64,000 nt of DNA from a bacterium (GTDB taxonomy: Bacteria; AUK180): contig JAGLGN010000001.1 of the NCBI GenBank assembly GCA_023144005.1, positions 1 to 64,000 of the forward strand, written 5' to 3'. This document shows, piece after piece, positions 45,964 to 55,101 of this stretch. Position 1 is the first letter of the stretch. Each line of letters starts with the position of its first letter. A program made the position numbers and the translations under genes. Below the pieces are notes generated by a model. It was given only the letters and a program-made list of their open reading frames with translations. It did not search any database and was not told the origin of the DNA.

Positions 45964-48900
45964 TTATGCTAAATTTTTCAATATATTTCTCAAGGTTTTT
46001 AGGATATTTCCAGGAGGAAGACTGACTTTGACCTGGTCTTTTCCTCTCTTCACATCTATCTTGAACATAGATTTAACACTGTGAAAGACCTTCTCAACCG
46101 TGGCGGAAGACGATATGGTCAATACATTATTCTTGTATGAAACAGCTGAGATCTGATTCTCAAGCGCCTTGATCTTGATCCACTGATATTCAAAGAGTTC
46201 ATTGACCTTCTCCGGTATGTTATTGTAAACCTCATACAGGCCTCGGCGAATGCTCTCCAATTTATCTTCCGAGCGGCAATTTACGATCTCAAGATAAAGG
46301 CGCTGCCGTTCTATGTGCAGAGGGATAAATTCCTTTGGGATATAAGGCAGTACTCCGATATCAAGTTCGGTATCCATGAGGACTTCGCCTCTTTTCAATT
46401 TCTCTATCAGGCGGTTCAGTATCTTCAGATACATCCCCAAGCCGATATTTGCGACATTCCCGGACTGCTGAGCTCCAAAAATATTCCCGATACCTCTTAT
46501 TTCAAGGTCCTTCATCGCAAGGCGGGAGCCGGAACCAAGATCCTGATATTCTCTAATGGCAGAGAGGCGCTTGACCGCATCCGGGGTCATACGCTCCAGA
46601 GAATCAACGAAGATATACGCATATGCCTGACGATGGGACCTGCCCACTCGGCCGCGCAATTGATAGAGTTGAGACAGGCCGAAATTTTCACCGTTATTGA
46701 TAATGATAGTGTTCACATTCGGCAGGTCTATCCCTATCTCAATAATGGTAGTGGACAGAAGAAGATCATAAAGGCCTCTTTGGAAGCTCTTCATTTTTTC
46801 CTCTATCTGGCCCGTAGACATCCTGCCGTGAAGGGTCAATATGCTTATAGAAGGTATGATCTCCTTGATCAGGGCCTTCATTCTTTCAAGTTCTTTTATA
46901 TTATTGTGTACAAAAAAGATCTGTCCGCCCCGCTTGACCTCTTCAAGGATGGCGCTTTTCAGTACATCTCTATCAAATAGTGAGATGATGGTCTTCACGG
47001 CACGCCGTCCCGGAGGAGCTGTCTCTATTACCGAAAGAGGGCGGATGCGCGAAAGTGACATGTAAAGAGTTCTTGGAATAGGCGTAGCGCTCATGGTCAA
47101 GGCATCGATATCCTTCTTCAGGATCTTGATATTCTCCTTTGCCTTGACTCCAAAACGCTGCTCTTCATCAATTATCAGAAGCCCGAGGTCCTTGAACTTA
47201 ACATCCTTCGACAGAAGTCTGTGAGTTCCGATGAGTATATCCACGCCCCCACGGGCGAGGTTTTTGACGACCTGCTTCGCTTCCGCAGTTGTCAACATCC
47301 TGGAGAGCATCGCGACAGAGATCCCATACCTCTCAAATCTATTACGGAAAGTTATCAAATGCTGTTCGCAAAGTACCGTGGTCGGAGCAAGCACAGCGAC
47401 CTGTTTCCCGTCGAACACCGCCTTGAAAGCGGCTCTCATAGCAACTTCCGTTTTGCCGAAGCCGACATCACCTACGAGGAGCCTATCCATGGGTTTCGCG
47501 GATTCCATATCCTTGGAGATCTCCTCTACTACTTTCTTCTGGTCTTCGGTATCCTCATATGCGAATGAATCGTAAAAATCCCGGTGCATATCCGAATCTC
47601 CCGAAAAAGAGAACCCTTGTGTGACCTCTCTTTCGGCATATAGCTTGGCAATGGACAGCAGCATCCTTTCCAATCCCTGCACCGCGCGGGCTTTCTTCTT
47701 ATCCCAGGCACCGGAGCGAAGCGAATCCAACACGGGATGATAACCCCCGCCGGAAATATATTTATGCACCTTTGACAATTTGTCGATGGGAAGATAAAGC
47801 GTTTCCCGGTTTTTATACTCGATCACGAAAAAGTCGCCCCAATGTGATGCGATCCGCCGATTCTCTATACCCCTGAACCTGCCAATGCCATAGTCCTCAT
47901 GCACTATATAGTCGCCTGCGTTGATATTCTTTAATTCCTTATCCACTTGAGCCGTAGGGCCTCTTTGTACGGATGAGGACTCTCTTCTGCTCGAGAGCAG
48001 GTCCTTCTCAGAAACAAAGACCATGTTCTCTCTAGAGTAAACAAAGCCCGAAGGAACATCACCCTTGAAAAAATATATCTTCGGATTGGTTTTAATATTG
48101 AAGAGGACCTTGGAAACGATCTCTTTCAAAGGCCCTACACGATTAGGGTTCCTCACAAAAAACAAAATAACTTGTTCATCTGAAAGCCATTTCTCAAATG
48201 TACGGGCGAAGAGTTGTGTGTTATTTGCGAAATTTATCAAACCGTAGGTAAGAAATTCCGTATTGTAGTCCAGGCTGCTTATCATTGAGAAGGTCTTCAA
48301 TATGGTTCGCTTGGATGTGATCGATTCGAATCTCTCTATGGGTTCGTCTATCTTTCTTAGAAGTTTCTCCCCCATGAGAAAAGATAATCTTTCACGCGTT
48401 TTCTCAACATTGTCCAGAACGGCAATATCATTTCTATTGAATCTCTGCTGAAGGTCCTCCTTCTTTTGGCACTCTATTTCTTCGGGAACCATGGTAAAAT
48501 CAGATATCTCGCTTCCTTTTTCATGGGTTTCCGGATTGAAGCAATAGATGGCTTCGATCCGGTCATCAAGAAATTCTATCCTAAGGGGTTCATCGGACCC
48601 GTACGGAAAAATATCTACGGTGTCTCCCCGTATGCTGAACTCTCCCATCTCCCAAACGATCGATTTCTTAGTAAAACCGCTCTTTTTCAGATGTTCATAA
48701 AGCTGCTCTAATTGCAGCTGAGAACCTGTGGAAAGATGGAGTACGCTATTGAGGATTTTCCGCTTTGAAGGTATCTTGCGGAATACGAACTCAAAGGGCA
48801 GTATTATAAAACGCGGTTCGGCGGAGGAATAGAATTTGAAAAGCGACTCGACGCTTATTTGCCCCTGATCATCACCTGAGAGAAGAAGTATCTTGTCGTC

Positions 48901-49125
48901 ATCAAATATCGAAGTGAGCATCTGATGATGCTTCTGTGCAACATAGGGCGAGAAGGAAAAGTAATATGTGTTGAAGCCGAATCTCTTGAAAGACAGATAT
49001 GAGAAAAGCAGATTCAGTAAAGAAGAGTTGGATGAGACCCTTTGCGCAATATTGCCTTTTCTGTTATATAGGGCGGCAAAGTCCTTGAAAGACCTTGTTG
49101 AAGTAAGTATTTTTTCAATGGTCAT
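45964..49125 (-). CDS. mfd: Transcription-repair coupling factor Mfd
   Basis: Mfd releases stalled RNA polymerase and recruits UvrA. The 1053-aa protein has the UvrB-like N-terminal region, the RNA-polymerase-interacting CarD-like domain ([17 protein letters not shown] near residue 415), then the RecG-like translocase. Walker A is [11 protein letters not shown] near 546, DEEQ near 651, and the downstream motifs include [20 protein letters not shown] and [11 protein letters not shown]-terminal TRCF domain completes it. It is slightly shorter than E. coli Mfd (1148 aa). It overlaps the RecJ-like gene by ATGA and ends the M42/PNP/RecJ operon. Confidence 0.97.
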
Positions 49126-51257
49126 TCCCTGGGTTCTATATCCTTCACATAGATAAGCGGCTGATCTTCGTATTTCTTGAGCATCGGTGTATAGAGAATG
49201 CTGTAAACCTTTCCCCTCTCAAGCCTCGGGCCGAAACTTCCATTATAAAGAGATATTCCGAAGTACTTCTGCGAATTTTTTCCGAACTCCATAAAAAGGG
49301 ATTTCCCGTCCTTTCCATATCTTCTGAAGTCCTCTAAAATAATATTGCGTTCAAGATAGGTAGGCGGCGGCATTTGTTTGCCGAAAGGGCCGCACATCTT
49401 AACGATATGCAAATGGTCCTTAGATACCTTTTCTACGGGCAAAAAATCATCATAAAAGAGCGATTCCGCCTCAAATTGTTTTTCAAATCCATTGAACCAC
49501 TCTTCAAATCTCTCTATAAATGAAGGTATCTTCACGTTTTCTATGGTGAACCCGACAGCTTTCCCGTGGCCTCCGAAGGTTAAAAAAAGCTCCGGATTCT
49601 CTTCAAAGAATTTCAGAATATTTCCGTTCAAGAAACGCGAAGAACCGTAAAGCGGTGTATCCTGAATAAGGATGACCGTCGGGGCATCCAGATTCTTGGC
49701 CAATTGTGCCGCGATAGCCCCTTTTCTCGATTCGAATTTCTTGTCTACCAGCATAACACGCACATTACCGTTCGGATTCAATTCCCTGCCGATCTCCAAT
49801 GCTTTTTTAGGCGTGGCTTCGGTAAAGGCTTTTCTCTTGAAAATATTCAATCGTTTGGAACGGAAGAAGCCGTCGATCTCCTCCATCTCTCCGGAGCGAT
49901 GCTTTGAATTCAATACAGGGATCAATTTATCATATACATAAAATGAATTGATGAGATAGGCCGAGTACTTGGTGTCTCTCAGTATCTTTGAAAAATCGAT
50001 ATAATTGTCTATCTTCTTCATGAAAAGATAATTGATGCCATCTATCATCATTCTATCGGAACATACGGTTATATAATAGATCAGAAGGGCCTCGTCCCTG
50101 GAAAAGGTCCTTAAATTATTTTCCTTTTTTAATATTTCCAGGAAAAGGCGGTATAAAGCCTTCGTATCATTTTTCGCACGATGAAAAGGGCCTCGGTAAA
50201 GATTCATGCTTTTGACGATATTGCCCAGAGAATATGAGCTCAGCCCCTTAAAAAATTTCCTTGACAAATTTACCGTGTCAATAAACTCATTTGTCAATAC
50301 CGGAAGTCCGAAACGCTTAAAATGATTATTCAGAAAAGAAATATCGAAGTTAACATTATGCGCAACGACCGGATGATCGGCGATAAAACCGTGAAGAACA
50401 GGGAAGAGCGCCCTGGGGGCCTTTCCTTTATTCTTCAACAGACGATTATCTATTCTTGTAAGGGCAACTATTTCCTTACTTAATTGTTTATCTGTGTGAA
50501 CAAGGGAATTAAAACGGGAAACGACCTCGCCGCCGGTAACCTTCAACGCAGAGATCTCGATGATGTGATCGGTAGCCGGATCCATTCCGGTGGTCTCAAC
50601 ATCGAGAAGTATATAGGTTTTCTGGAAAACGGGATTGGCCGTCCTTTCCAGATGCCGCTTCAATAAATATACCATGCCGGCCGCAGAGGGATAGCCGCCG
50701 GTGTGGAAGTTTGGATTATAATAAATCACTCCGGGTACTTCATAATAATCCTGAAGGTGATGATCAATGACCAGAGTGGATATGCCTTCCTTTATAAGGG
50801 CTTCCAGGCCTTCCGATGAGTTCTGGCCCATATCAAGAAGTATGACCGCCTCATAGCCGTCAGATATGATCTTCTCCGCATCATCCTTTGTGAAAAGAGG
50901 GATCGGGCCCCAGAATTCCTTGTAAAATACATTTTGAGAATTTGAGAGTTCCGAGTTGATCAGGGCCATCAGCTTCATAGCGCCATAGCCGTCCAGATCG
51001 CGGTCATATATCACTGCGACCTTACTGTCATCCCCCAGCACCTCTTTCACGAATTCACCCGCCTGAACAACATGTGATACTGCTTCATATTCAAGATACA
51101 GGGGAAAATCCTTATCCCAGAAAGGAAGAATATTCTCCTTTTTCCGGCGCATATAAAAGGATACCACATCGCGCTCTATGGCATTCTTGAAGGAGAAATC
51201 CTCGACTTTCTTCTGATTAAGGGGGTATTTTTTCCACTTGATATCGTCAAAGAACAT
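49122..51257 (-). CDS. RecJ-like DHH exonuclease with inserted DEDDh exonuclease domain
   Basis: The 711-aa protein begins as a RecJ-type DHH phosphoesterase: YDRDLDGYGAM near residue 83, LLDMGQNS and VIDHH near 162. After GGYPSAAGMVYLLKRHL the RecJ fold is interrupted by a complete DnaQ-like DEDDh exonuclease (about 213-375) with LLDVETTGMD, HNVNFDISFL and FHRAKNDTKAL. RecJ-like sequence then resumes (LLIYYITVCSDRMMI) and ends with a DHHA1 domain carrying FGGHGKAVGF near 563. All metal-binding motifs of both nucleases appear intact, although the first RecJ motif reads DRDLDG rather than DYDADG. It lies directly upstream of mfd, suggesting DNA repair. Confidence 0.85.
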   Translation of the reverse strand: MFFDDIKWKKYPLNQKKVEDFSFKNAIERDVVSFYMRRKKENILPFWDKDFPLYLEYEAVSHVVQAGEFVKEVLGDDSKVAVIYDRDLDGYGAMKLMALINSELSNSQNVFYKEFWGPIPLFTKDDAEKIISDGYEAVILLDMGQNSSEGLEALIKEGISTLVIDHHLQDYYEVPGVIYYNPNFHTGGYPSAAGMVYLLKRHLERTANPVFQKTYILLDVETTGMDPATDHIIEISALKVTGGEVVSRFNSLVHTDKQLSKEIVALTRIDNRLLKNKGKAPRALFPVLHGFIADHPVVAHNVNFDISFLNNHFKRFGLPVLTNEFIDTVNLSRKFFKGLSSYSLGNIVKSMNLYRGPFHRAKNDTKALYRLFLEILKKENNLRTFSRDEALLIYYITVCSDRMMIDGINYLFMKKIDNYIDFSKILRDTKYSAYLINSFYVYDKLIPVLNSKHRSGEMEEIDGFFRSKRLNIFKRKAFTEATPKKALEIGRELNPNGNVRVMLVDKKFESRKGAIAAQLAKNLDAPTVILIQDTPLYGSSRFLNGNILKFFEENPELFLTFGGHGKAVGFTIENVKIPSFIERFEEWFNGFEKQFEAESLFYDDFLPVEKVSKDHLHIVKMCGPFGKQMPPPTYLERNIILEDFRRYGKDGKSLFMEFGKNSQKYFGISLYNGSFGPRLERGKVYSILYTPMLKKYEDQPLIYVKDIEPRE

Positions 51258-52053
51258 CTATGAATCCTTTAATAAATCCCCGGAATTTGTTTTCCGCCTT
51301 TTTACCGATCTGTATCACTTCTTCATGTGAAAGCTCTGTTTGCGACAGCCCCGTACCCAGATTAGTGCAAAGAGACAGTCCCAGAATGTCCATATCCAAT
51401 TGCCGCGCCATGATGATCTCCGGGACCGTAGACATTCCTACAAGATCGGCGCCGAGAAGAGACACCATTCTCACTTCCGAAGTAGTTTCATAAGTCGGCC
51501 CTGTAAGAAAACAATATGTCCCCTCTTTGAGGTCAATATCAAGATCACGCAATATGTTCTTTGCTTTTTCACGCATATCCGCATTGAAGGGAGCTGACAT
51601 ATCAATAAATCTCGGGCCGGTATCCGGGGGATGTCCGATCAGAGGATTATCCTGCACCAGATTGATATAATCCTTCAGGAGAACGAGATCGCCGGGAAGT
51701 ATTTCCTTATTGACCGAGCCGGCAGCATTGGTAAAGATCACTTTCGATATCTTCAAATGGTGCATAAGTCTTACGGGAAACGCGACTTCCCACATGGAAT
51801 ACCCTTCATAATAATGGATACGGCCTTTGAAAAATGCGATATTTTTTCCCTTATATCTCTGAATAGAGAATACACCTCCATGGCCTTCCACCGTGGGGTG
51901 CGGGAAACCCGGAATATCTGTGAATTTGACGGAGAACAGCTCCTCAAATTCTGAATCGGCGATATTGATACCGGAGCCCTGAACAATAGCAAGATCAATT
52001 TTCTCTGAAAATGAGTTCCTTATAAAGTCGGCTGCAGTGGCGGATTGCTTCAC
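51247..52053 (-). CDS. punA: Purine nucleoside phosphorylase
   Basis: PNP splits purine nucleosides with phosphate for salvage. The 268-aa protein shows the trimeric PNP family motifs: VQGSGI near the N-terminus, FFKGRIHYYEGYSM, TNAAGSVN, GPTYETTSEVRM and GADLVGMSTVPE. GSGI replaces the usual GSGL. The start is GTG overlapping the stop of the preceding M42 gene. It shares an operon with three peptidases and two DNA repair genes. Confidence 0.92.
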   Translation of the reverse strand: MKQSATAADFIRNSFSEKIDLAIVQGSGINIADSEFEELFSVKFTDIPGFPHPTVEGHGGVFSIQRYKGKNIAFFKGRIHYYEGYSMWEVAFPVRLMHHLKISKVIFTNAAGSVNKEILPGDLVLLKDYINLVQDNPLIGHPPDTGPRFIDMSAPFNADMREKAKNILRDLDIDLKEGTYCFLTGPTYETTSEVRMVSLLGADLVGMSTVPEIIMARQLDMDILGLSLCTNLGTGLSQTELSHEEVIQIGKKAENKFRGFIKGFIDVL

Positions 52054-53066
52054 AGGGCACCCCCTATTTTACCTTTGACCGCCGCGACAAGGAGTTTGAT
52101 GGTATTTTCAACATCCGTTGAAGATATCATCTCGGATGGAGTATGAATATATCTTGTGGGGATAGATATTCCTATAGAGGGAATGCCTTTTTTCACCAAT
52201 GACATGGTGCCGGCATCCGTTCCTCCGCAAGGAAGGACTTCGAGCTGATGCGGTATCTTATTTTTCTTCGCGATAGAAATGAAATGCTCCTTCAATTTCG
52301 GATGGGAGATCAGTGAAGCATCCATTATTTTGATGGCAGGGCCTGAATCCAGCCGCATATTAAGATACATATTTTCTCTGGTATCATCCGAATCGGTCAC
52401 ATCCACAGCGATAGCAATATGAGGGGCGATGCCGAAAGCGCTTGTAGCGGCGCCGAGGCCGGAAAATTCCTCTTGAACGGTGAATACAAAATTCACGGTA
52501 TCCTTCAGATCTGCCGATGCAAGTTCTTTGATCACTTTAAGCAGAACATATACACCGATTCGGTCATCCAATGCCTTTGAAATGATCCTGCCGTTGGCGG
52601 CCTTTACCAGATCACGGGCAAAAACCCCAAAGGTGCCGATGGGGAGAAGCTTTTCCGCTTCCTTCCTATTCTTTGCTCCGATATCGATGAAGAATTTGTG
52701 CATTTCGATCTCCGGTTTGGGATATGTCTTCTCTGATGAGATCACCCCCCAGGTTCCGTTTTCAAATTGCACACGATTCCCAAAAAGGCCTTCTTTATAA
52801 ACAAAACCGACCGGAGAGGCCTTGATAAAGCCGTCCTTATCTATATATGTGGAGATCAATCCTATTTCATCCAGATGAGCAGCCAGAAGGATCTTCTTCC
52901 CCGAATTACCCAGGGTAACACGAGTGGAACCATGTACATCCCTTTTTGTTTTTAATTTCATTTTCTTTAATTCTTCTGAAACAAGATCGGCCACGGCAAA
53001 TTCACGGCCTGACGGGCCGAAAGCGCTCGTAAGCTTTTCCAGTAATTTAATATCCAAAGCCATCAC
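52050..53066 (-). CDS. M42 family metallopeptidase (1 of 3)
   Basis: The 338-aa protein is an M42 (FrvX/glutamyl aminopeptidase) enzyme. The first metal His and Asp are in AAHLDEIGL, the bridging Asp in DDRIGVYV, catalytic Glu in VQEEFSGLG, Asp in AVDVTDSDD, and the last His in RYIHTPSEM. M42 peptidases form dodecamers that finish degrading peptides in the cytoplasm. The start overlaps the stop of the next upstream M42 gene by 4 bp. The best-preserved metal-binding set of the three paralogues is here. Confidence 0.93.
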   Translation of the reverse strand: MMALDIKLLEKLTSAFGPSGREFAVADLVSEELKKMKLKTKRDVHGSTRVTLGNSGKKILLAAHLDEIGLISTYIDKDGFIKASPVGFVYKEGLFGNRVQFENGTWGVISSEKTYPKPEIEMHKFFIDIGAKNRKEAEKLLPIGTFGVFARDLVKAANGRIISKALDDRIGVYVLLKVIKELASADLKDTVNFVFTVQEEFSGLGAATSAFGIAPHIAIAVDVTDSDDTRENMYLNMRLDSGPAIKIMDASLISHPKLKEHFISIAKKNKIPHQLEVLPCGGTDAGTMSLVKKGIPSIGISIPTRYIHTPSEMISSTDVENTIKLLVAAVKGKIGGAL

Positions 53067-54097
53067 TTTCCTCCATAGAGTTTTTTGAGCTTCAGCTGAA
53101 GAAGAGAGATCCCCTCTTCAAGCAGTTTCAAGGTGTTTTCCACATCCTTAATAAGAATCATTCCCACGGGGGCGTGTATGTATCTCACCGGAACGGAAAC
53201 ACAGATAGAAGGGATACCCGTTCTGTGTCTGAGTAAATAGAAGGTTTCTGTCCCCCCTGTAGCGGTCATCTTATATTGGAACGGGATGCTATTCATTTTA
53301 GCAACCTCTTCAAGTAATTTTTTTAATCCCGAATTACCGATAGACATTCTGTCCATGGCGGTTATCGCGGGGCCGTTGCCGCATATGGTCGAAGGGGAAT
53401 TGTCAAGGCCTTCATCCGGAGAAGAGTGCGAGGTGGTGCCTTCAACGGCAAATGCGAAGTCGCCCTTGATCATATGAAGAGCGGATTGTATTCCGCGGAG
53501 ACCAACCTCTTCCTGAACGGTAAATACACCTGTTATATCGATATCCCAATCCTTCTTCAGTATCTCTGAAATAATAAAGCACCCGATGCGGTCGTCCCAG
53601 GCCTTTCCTCTGATCCACCCGTTATCTGTTTTCTCGGGTACGGTGTAGAATGTGGCATAATCACCCAAGCTCACGAGCTTCGCCGCGCTTTGCTTGTCTT
53701 CGCATCCGATGAAGATCCTGAGGTCCTTGACCTTAAGGACATCCTTTCCGCGTTTGAGGTGTACCGGCGGAGACATAATAACGCCACGAAGCCGGTTTTC
53801 TCCGATCTGTACTGCCTTCGAAGGGAGAAGGCGAGAGTCTATGCCGCCGACTGTCCTGAAGGATAATGTCCCGTCCTTATTTATCTTGGATATGAGGAAA
53901 CCGACCTCATCCATGTGAGCGGAGAGGATGATACCGGACCCCTTGATCTTTCCACGCTTAATACCGATAAGGGAGCCAAGCGATGATTGTTTGAATTCAA
54001 CTCCGTGCGGCTCCAGTTCGTCTCTTAAAAGGTCCGATACGGACTCTTCATTCCCCGAAGGGCCAAAGGTAGCGGAGAGCTCCATCGCGAATTTCAT
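53063..54097 (-). CDS. M42 family metallopeptidase (2 of 3)
   Basis: The 344-aa protein has M42 motifs SAHMDEVGF, WDDRIGCF, VQEEVGLRG and RYIHAPVGM. The strand that in copy 1 reads AVDVTDSDD reads AVEGTTSHS here, so the usual Asp ligand is replaced by Glu. It shares clear overall similarity with copies 1 and 3 but not near-identity, so the triplication is old. The ATG overlaps the copy 3 stop. Confidence 0.92.
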   Translation of the reverse strand: MKFAMELSATFGPSGNEESVSDLLRDELEPHGVEFKQSSLGSLIGIKRGKIKGSGIILSAHMDEVGFLISKINKDGTLSFRTVGGIDSRLLPSKAVQIGENRLRGVIMSPPVHLKRGKDVLKVKDLRIFIGCEDKQSAAKLVSLGDYATFYTVPEKTDNGWIRGKAWDDRIGCFIISEILKKDWDIDITGVFTVQEEVGLRGIQSALHMIKGDFAFAVEGTTSHSSPDEGLDNSPSTICGNGPAITAMDRMSIGNSGLKKLLEEVAKMNSIPFQYKMTATGGTETFYLLRHRTGIPSICVSVPVRYIHAPVGMILIKDVENTLKLLEEGISLLQLKLKKLYGGK

Positions 54098-55101
54098 TAT
54101 TGCCCCCCTTTGAAGTCCTGAATGAAGTATTTGATAAGGTCGGATATGCGCTTAAGAACATCCATTCTTACCGCTTCACCAGGAGAATGCATCGAGTACA
54201 CCGGAAATGAGATCCCCACGGTAGCGTGATTGCCTGAAATAGAATACTGATAAGCATTTGTGCCATTTACGGATTCTTCTATCTCGCGCACGCATTTAAT
54301 AGAATGTTCCTCCGCCAATTTCTCTAATTGATGATTATATTTCCTTGAATAATTCGGGCCGAACATCAATGCCAATGTATCCGACGGAAAGGTCCTGTCC
54401 TCATCTGCACCTTTTTGTTTCGCGAAGGTGGCATCAATAACTATCGCCAGATCGATGATGTCATTGGCGTCAGTGGAAGCACCCCTTATCCCGACCTCTT
54501 CCTGAACGGTTGAACGGAAGATCACGGTGGGTACTGGATCAAAATTTTTCAGAAATTCCGCGATCGCAAGAAGGATCCAAAGGCCGCCCTTATTATCAAT
54601 ACCGGGGCCCACGAGAAAATCTCCCGCTGCGAATGGTTCGAAGGCGAAAAATATAGGATCACCGATATCAATAACCTTCAATAGCTCCTTACGGGTCATC
54701 GCAGGATCCAGAAGTATGTCCCGCAACGGAATGGGTTTGTCCTTTTCACCCGGAAGCATCAGATGCGGCGGTTTTGTCGCCGCGATCGCCGGAACCTCTT
54801 CCTTCCCGAGAATGGTGTATCTTCCACCGGGAATTACATTCGGATCGATACCTCCGATATTATGCACCCTGATAAAGCCATTGTCCTCGATCTTCTTGAC
54901 AACCATTCCGATCTGATCATAATGAGCATCCAAGAGTATCGTAAAGGGATATTTTCCTATCTTACGGGCTTCGATATTGCCCAAAGGTGAAACATTTGTA
55001 TCCAGACCGGCATCTGTAAACCTTTTCACGAGGAATTCCTGTAAATTTTTCTCAAAACCCGATATCGAAGGTTTCTGAAGCATTTCTTTAAGCAGTTCCA
55101 T
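54097..55101 (-). CDS. M42 family metallopeptidase (3 of 3)
   Basis: The 334-aa protein has LDAHYDQIGM, PGIDNKGGLW, VQEEVGIRG, VIDATFAKQKG and VYSMHSPGEAV. The aspartate before IG is preserved, while the second-site region (DNKGG in place of DDRIG) resembles a distinct M42 subgroup. It is the first gene of the operon, with AAGGAG 10 bp from the ATG and a good promoter upstream. Confidence 0.92.
   Translation of the reverse strand: MELLKEMLQKPSISGFEKNLQEFLVKRFTDAGLDTNVSPLGNIEARKIGKYPFTILLDAHYDQIGMVVKKIEDNGFIRVHNIGGIDPNVIPGGRYTILGKEEVPAIAATKPPHLMLPGEKDKPIPLRDILLDPAMTRKELLKVIDIGDPIFFAFEPFAAGDFLVGPGIDNKGGLWILLAIAEFLKNFDPVPTVIFRSTVQEEVGIRGASTDANDIIDLAIVIDATFAKQKGADEDRTFPSDTLALMFGPNYSRKYNHQLEKLAEEHSIKCVREIEESVNGTNAYQYSISGNHATVGISFPVYSMHSPGEAVRMDVLKRISDLIKYFIQDFKGGQ

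Follow-up and report, generated by a model that had tools for sequence, protein, structure and literature searches.

The locus described here raises the question of how one nuclease comes to lie inside another, and what a protein built in this way does. RecJ is treated as a uniform 5′–3′ enzyme in nearly all bacteria, spirochaetes included. A Borrelia recJ mutant, for example, has been discussed purely as a 5′–3′ exonuclease mutant (PMC9159922). The window, by which we mean the whole 64,000-nucleotide stretch of DNA that was analyzed, contains a recJ gene at 49122..51257 on the minus strand, a single unbroken frame with an ATG start that encodes 711 aa. A sequence-only reading had proposed that a DnaQ-like exonuclease is nested in the DHH region of this RecJ and that both catalytic sets are intact, and this is borne out. 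Pfam identifies DHH (residues 79–201), RNase_T/DEDDh (217–372, E 1.1e-28) and RecJ_OB (603–699; 49161..49451, minus strand), both folds appear in the AlphaFold2 model, and the DEDDh and RecJ residues are all present by sequence. The RNase_T match (PF00929), an HMM comparison that had been set beforehand as a check, scores 101.2 bits against a cut-off of 24; a DHHA1 match at 513–589 (E 0.0013) falls under the Pfam cut-off.

The order of features along the protein, all on the minus strand, defines the insertion. RecJ motif I (DRDLDG, residues 85–90; 50988..51005), motif II (D142-M-G144; 50826..50834) and motif III (DHH, 165–167; 50757..50765) are followed by one further helix (192–205) and then by the inserted DEDDh (DnaQ-type) domain (residues 214–380; 50118..50618), which is also matched to PDB entries in both sequence and fold. 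The RecJ core resumes at the motif IV metal ligand D401 (50055..50057), so that 186 residues separate motifs III and IV, compared with 10–24 in ordinary RecJs; the borders first read, 213–375, were right to within a few residues. The five DEDDh residues are D219 and E221 (D219-x-E221, 50595..50603), D305 (50343..50345), and H359 and D364 (HRAKND, 50166..50183), and they are kept across the window's family, f1. All f1 copies likewise have the RecJ metal ligands D85, D87, D89, D142, H166, and D401 (DrRecJ D79, D81, D83, D135, H159, and D223). Further along, R454, S539, R541, and H564 are the equivalents of DrRecJ Arg280, Ser371, Arg373, and His397, located in motif V (N450..R454; 49896..49910) and in the phosphate-binding S539-x-R541 and GGH 562–564 of DHHA1 (motifs VI and VII; 49566..49643). 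The window protein scores 137.7 bits against TIGR00644, below the curated cut-off of 396.9, and insert-type RecJs from most lineages elsewhere score above it, with a maximum of 551.9.

Structure prediction, suggested at the outset as a check, supports both folds and the insertion point. The final AlphaFold2 model used an alignment of 63 sequences and has a pLDDT of 90.6 and a pTM of 0.88, with most of the DnaQ domain at pLDDT 95–99. An earlier model from 7 sequences was poor at residues 399–481 and much worse throughout the RecJ part, and both models place the RecJ and DnaQ folds in order. Foldseek aligned the window model with RecJ over its full length (best E 2.5e-25), with TM scores of 0.54–0.60 to 5f55, 6lrd, and 2zxo over 740–750 columns, gaps included. 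The insert matches the DnaQ fold with a TM score of 0.92 to 8h2f and 0.87 at 1.7 Å to 2ido. On sequence and fold together, it is well supported as a likely 3′–5′ exonuclease.

Such an arrangement could arise trivially, if a misassembly or a false gene fusion had joined two genes. All five f1 genomes carry the DnaQ-inserted recJ with the same junction, at identities of 46–100%: the copy in G001, from the same genus, is near-identical and those in three further genera are 46–60% identical. It therefore does not result from an assembly error. The gene is also found in two public contigs (RS_12_30 and AUK180), and the same insertion site recurs in many other families, including one genome assembled as a single contig of 2.5 Mb (G170). 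Nothing was found in favor of a chimera; it is ruled out by this recurrence, and its probability is negligible.

Nor is the protein a single oddity, as it first appeared, because a search for the domain order finds the same architecture across Spirochaetota and other phyla. We define an insert-type RecJ as one with an insert of at least 100 aa between motifs III and IV and no equivalent of DrRecJ Arg109; the window protein has 186 aa at this site and lacks the arginine. It belongs to a previously undescribed RecJ subfamily whose members come from Spirochaetota and four or more further phylum-level groups, and which is marked by same-site inserts of 183–191 aa as against the 10–24 aa of ordinary RecJs. 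Among 386 diverse genomes, the architecture with an intact DEDDh set occurs in families f1, f2, f19, f31, f70, f74, and f187, and f117, f219, and f58 have degenerate inserts in that position. Family f2 is of the same class as f1, and its copy in G005 is interrupted by the contig end. The phylum of G170 is identified as Spirochaetota from plasmid matches of two of its members: one G489 contig is a Borrelia hermsii plasmid (100% identity), and one from G461 is a Brachyspira hyodysenteriae plasmid. The insert looks intact in about 15 of 120 Spirochaetota genomes and is diverged, at 110–190 aa, in most of the remaining RecJs inspected in that phylum; those of Borrelia, Brachyspira, and a Treponema-like genome lack the catalytic residues (the last, G439, is a single-contig genome of 1.14 Mb that takes this label from its size alone). 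Two of the spirochaete RecJs inspected are without a full insert, L139 (46 aa left) and L140. Elsewhere, the insert is present in all three genomes of a small phylum around G035 and in both of those around G074 and G215, is limited to one family in the phylum of G078, and has decayed in three of three genomes in the phylum of G121.

Other candidates for membership or origin were set aside. In G019 the DnaQ domain starts a different protein, and a phage or plasmid origin was dropped when the best matches there proved to be plain RecJ. A search of IMG/VR gave DnaQ-domain matches and one contig with separate, adjoining dnaQ and recJ genes. On that putative viral contig (IMGVR_UViG_3300025010_000029, 165,697 bp; L332 1135-3516), a gene for a 202-aa DnaQ-type protein is directly upstream of one for a 565-aa RecJ-type protein. 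In the open-access literature, to which the search was confined, we found no account of a RecJ with an inserted exonuclease and nothing on spirochaete RecJ domains or RecJ signature indels, although an earlier mention may exist elsewhere; the word RecJ is absent from the main paper on spirochaete indels (PMC3726837).

The decayed inserts differ in how much of their ancestry can be recognized. Profile comparison with DnaQ gives an E of 1.9e-19 (99%) for the insert of f117, which makes its homology firm at the sequence level. For the Borrelia and Treponema-like inserts a pairwise profile comparison (E 3.1e-5, 73%; reversed control 0.31) is suggestive of the same homology, and the Brachyspira insert gives a weak match (0.0045). 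No match to DnaQ was obtained in profile comparison for the inserts of f262/281/58, f294/276/297, f264, and f219, and an HMM search with a profile of intact inserts did not set most decayed inserts apart from shuffled controls. Support for a common origin of decayed and intact inserts comes instead from their position, the loss of Arg109 and their placement in the tree. The inserts of L119 and L055 (f264 and f219) are 166–178 aa long, at the same site and without detectable DnaQ similarity; those of L059 and L063, from the small-genome lineage f58, are 109–115 aa and resemble those of the spirochaete families f262 and f281.

With the insert columns removed, the tree of the RecJ core groups 32 plain RecJs in a single clade with 100% support. 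Presence of the insert requires two changes on this tree, the second of them at L139, a spirochaete RecJ placed among insert-type sequences. The tree of the DnaQ domain is weakly resolved; it does not reject a single clade (AU p 0.236) and places the f1 domain as sister to that of f2 (88/97). The insert was thus probably gained once, which, on an unrooted RecJ-core tree, is the simplest reading of these sequence data rather than proof.

The insertion goes together with a second change, in the pocket that holds the 5′ end of the substrate. In DrRecJ, Arg109 grips the 5′ phosphate, Tyr80 and Tyr114 grip the terminal nucleotide and Tyr114 excludes ribose; kcat/Km falls from 17.1 to 1.1 in Y80A and 1.6 in R109A (PMC4846377). 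We scanned all RecJ columns for positions that plain RecJs conserve and insert-type RecJs have lost. The best separators, in order, were Arg109 (100% in plain, 0% in insert-type), Tyr80 (94% and 0%, mostly Arg or Lys), Arg274 (91% and 0%), and Phe269 (82% and 14%, mostly Trp). The equivalent of Arg109 is present in 33 of 33 plain RecJs and 0 of 62 insert-type RecJs, and the P-x-R..GYG motif in 33 of 34 RecJs without a full insert (L139 is the exception, and L050, whose row ends before the pocket region, is left out) and again in 0 of 62, counts that overstate independence because the rows include close relatives. The change nevertheless runs through every insert-type family sampled. Outside f1, nearly all insert-type RecJs retain Tyr114; in f1 proteins the whole loop with Arg109 and Tyr114 is gone (the site in the window is at residues 119–123; 50889..50903, minus strand), and in the window protein Tyr80 is replaced by Arg86 within motif I. 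Judged from these alignments, the subfamily has a remodelled 5′-nucleotide pocket.

This bears directly on the claim that the RecJ half works 5′–3′, which cannot be assumed when Arg109 and Tyr80 are lost throughout the subfamily and the Tyr114 loop as well in f1. The DHH site may differ from that of DrRecJ in polarity and substrate, because the features that set polarity and DNA specificity in DrRecJ are among those that changed. It probably still acts as a hydrolase, given that four f1 sequences with only 43–63% mutual identity in the RecJ part all retain its ligands. With so divergent a core and with Arg109, Tyr80, and the Tyr114 loop lost, its predicted activity in the window protein may be weak, of the other polarity or directed at RNA.

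The complement of related proteins in each genome leads to a different possibility for f1. Every f1 genome also encodes a plain RecJ of ∼540 aa with a complete pocket, and in every non-f1 lineage searched the insert-type RecJ is the sole strong RecJ match. In the window's own genome, RNase_T matches just one other protein, which is 291 aa long and lacks the DEDD residues, and the recJ insert is thus the genome's sole predicted intact RNase_T-type exonuclease. That 291-aa protein (L036 322-1197, G000:C7) has a DnaQ-like N-terminal part followed, by eye, by a WYL-type regulatory domain. In f1, therefore, the RecJ half might serve chiefly as a scaffold or act as a modified hydrolase, and the protein might work as a 3′–5′ DEDDh exonuclease that substitutes for ExoI or ExoX. 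Along with the second RecJ, the lost loop and the lack of another intact RNase_T exonuclease, the rates of divergence point this way: the identity between f1 and f2 is 22% in the RecJ core and 35% in the DnaQ domain, and the stem of the window's family carries 3.28 changes per column in the core and 0.59 in the DnaQ domain. However, all six metal ligands and the equivalents of Arg280, Ser371, Arg373, and His397 are kept in the four divergent f1 sequences, and retention at 43–63% identity is unlike a dead domain. We regard this alternative as unlikely, although it is one to be taken seriously.

The recJ insert is also the only RNase_T match in G002–G004, G006, G023, G170, G420, G219, G396, G442, and G449, some of which are incomplete drafts. 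No RNase_T match was found in the genomes of Borrelia hermsii and Brachyspira hyodysenteriae, and in the Treponema-like G439 the decayed recJ insert is accompanied by a DnaQ-type protein encoded separately. It is conceivable, but doubtful, that the two sites form one machine in which the DEDDh domain would replace both the lost 5′-phosphate contact and end recognition, and single-stranded DNA would be removed from both ends; where no other RNase_T-type protein is encoded (G170, for example), the insert would then be the sole DEDDh exonuclease, possibly with editing or ExoI-like work.

Gene neighbors offer a further guide to function. The window has M42 peptidase genes, then those for purine-nucleoside phosphorylase, RecJ, and Mfd, all on the minus strand: the phosphorylase gene (51247..52053; NCBIfam NF006054, above cut-off) overlaps recJ by 11 bp and is a neighbor conserved across lineages, mfd (45964..49125) overlaps it by 4 bp, and an M42 peptidase gene lies at 52050..53066. 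Three successive M42-type peptidase genes with overlaps of 1–4 bp occupy 52050-55101, and f2 has such a block of three as well (L201). The f2 order is M42 genes, a GNAT gene, phosphorylase, and recJ, without Mfd, and the M42–phosphorylase–recJ order shared by f1 and f2 identifies the loci as orthologous. In line with the first reading, the adjacency to mfd suggests a nuclease that is coupled to Mfd and handles ends of either polarity during repair, whether by nucleotide excision, at mismatches or at stalled forks. In this respect, Mfd is also directly next to recJ in G004 and G001, the known roles of RecJ are in repair, two polarities in one protein could serve two-directional mismatch excision, and several lineages have neither a RecJ nor an RNase_T exonuclease besides this protein. 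Among the loci compared, however, Mfd adjoins recJ nowhere outside f1, the sister f2 included, and the conserved neighbors are nucleoside phosphorylases. An Mfd/repair operon was consequently dropped as a general rule, and a repair nuclease of this kind now seems rather unlikely, although a role in repair excision is compatible with the data and may hold where the insert-type protein is the only RecJ.

The neighbors that recur elsewhere are purine-nucleoside phosphorylase, thymidine/pyrimidine-nucleoside phosphorylase, phosphopentomutase, and cytidine deaminase. With search queries drawn from insert-type loci, a phosphorylase was found in the stretch around recJ at 16 of 29 intact, 8 of 22 decayed, and 0 of 23 plain loci, or, by family, in 14 of 26 insert-type and 0 of 21 plain (Fisher p 4.4e-5). 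A PNP_UDP_1 protein is encoded somewhere in 20 of 21 control genomes, the window's own among them. In about half of the insert families no phosphorylase lies close to recJ, none of the loci examined has an identified nucleotidase beside it, and neighboring genes need not belong to one pathway. In f58, the recJ gene of G205 sits in a salvage cluster with phosphopentomutase, purine and pyrimidine phosphorylases, and cytidine deaminase. In the Spirochaetota families f19, f287, and f280 (L202, L206, L212–L215, L219, and L230), it is aspartate carbamoyltransferase (pyrB) that adjoins an insert-type recJ. Because of the phosphorylase neighbors, DNA turnover or salvage fits better than transcription-coupled repair. 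The same enzymes would suit RNA as well as DNA, and the protein might instead degrade RNA or oligonucleotides, in the manner of NrnA, archaeal RecJ2, Orn, or RNase T, and feed ribonucleoside salvage. The absence in f1 of the loop with the ribose-excluding tyrosine of DrRecJ (PMC4846377) agrees with this, as does the preference for RNA that archaeal RecJs can have (PMC5615345). Against it, Tyr114 is kept in nearly all non-f1 insert-type RecJs, the OB domain is retained and the insert is closest to the exonucleases of PolC and DinG, and we consider RNA degradation quite improbable.

From the architecture, conserved residues, distribution, pocket change, and neighbors, all seen directly, we infer an activity, polarity, substrate, and role as follows. 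The DHH-domain loop that joins motif III to motif IV would have received a PolC/DinG-like DEDDh exonuclease, probably in a single event, and the 5′-nucleotide pocket would have been rebuilt along with it. The DEDDh domain would trim the 3′ ends of single-stranded DNA, and the DHH/DHHA1 core, which would recognize ends in an altered way, would hydrolyze from the opposite end and release 5′-mononucleotides. One main use would be DNA turnover that feeds nucleoside salvage, as the purine and pyrimidine phosphorylase neighbors suggest, with excision work also expected where the insert-type protein is the only RecJ. In f1, the separate plain RecJ could cover the usual 5′–3′ role, and the inserted protein would be an additional RecJ with a retuned RecJ half. 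Taken as a whole, a two-ended single-strand exonuclease with DNA turnover for salvage as one main use is the explanation that we favor, with somewhat better than even confidence.

These observations point to spirochaete-type RecJs as a subfamily of their own, distinguished by a nested second nuclease, whether alive or decayed, and by a different 5′-end pocket. They make the origin of RecJ polarity directly testable, and suggest that the breakdown of DNA is genetically linked to nucleoside salvage.

Several known systems have features in common with the protein. It shares with bacterial RecJ (Deinococcus radiodurans, Thermus thermophilus, Staphylococcus aureus; TIGR00644) the DHH–DHHA1–OB order, the metal ligands, the fold, and the equivalents of Arg280, Ser371, Arg373, and His397, and differs in its DEDDh insert of ∼170 residues, the replacement of Arg109, Tyr80, and Arg274, and, in f1, the loss of the Tyr114 loop. 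With PolC/DnaQ-type exonucleases (Thermotoga maritima PolC, 2p1j, to which the insert is ∼34% identical; the S. thermophilus DnaQ domain, 8h18/8h2f) the insert has fold, length, and the five DEDDh residues in common, but those exonucleases are free-standing, within a polymerase or terminal, whereas the window domain is inside another nuclease. In M. jannaschii RecJ1 and RecJ2, the polarity of a RecJ-family enzyme can reverse, and archaeal RecJs vary in this respect; these proteins are archaeal and, in the portions of the paper available, no inserted exonuclease domain is seen (PMC5615345). Cdc45 also combines a RecJ fold with an insertion in the DHH domain and the absence of Arg109 (PMC4873980; PMC4846377), but its insertion is helical and may lie at a different site, its nuclease site is dead, and Ser371 and Arg373 are lost as well. 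DinG of S. aureus and B. subtilis is likewise a DEDDh exonuclease joined covalently to a DNA-processing enzyme, and its N-terminal DEDDh domain is an active 3′–5′ exonuclease (PMC12345164; PMC12525004); in DinG the domain is fused at the terminus of a helicase, and in the window protein it is nested inside a second nuclease.
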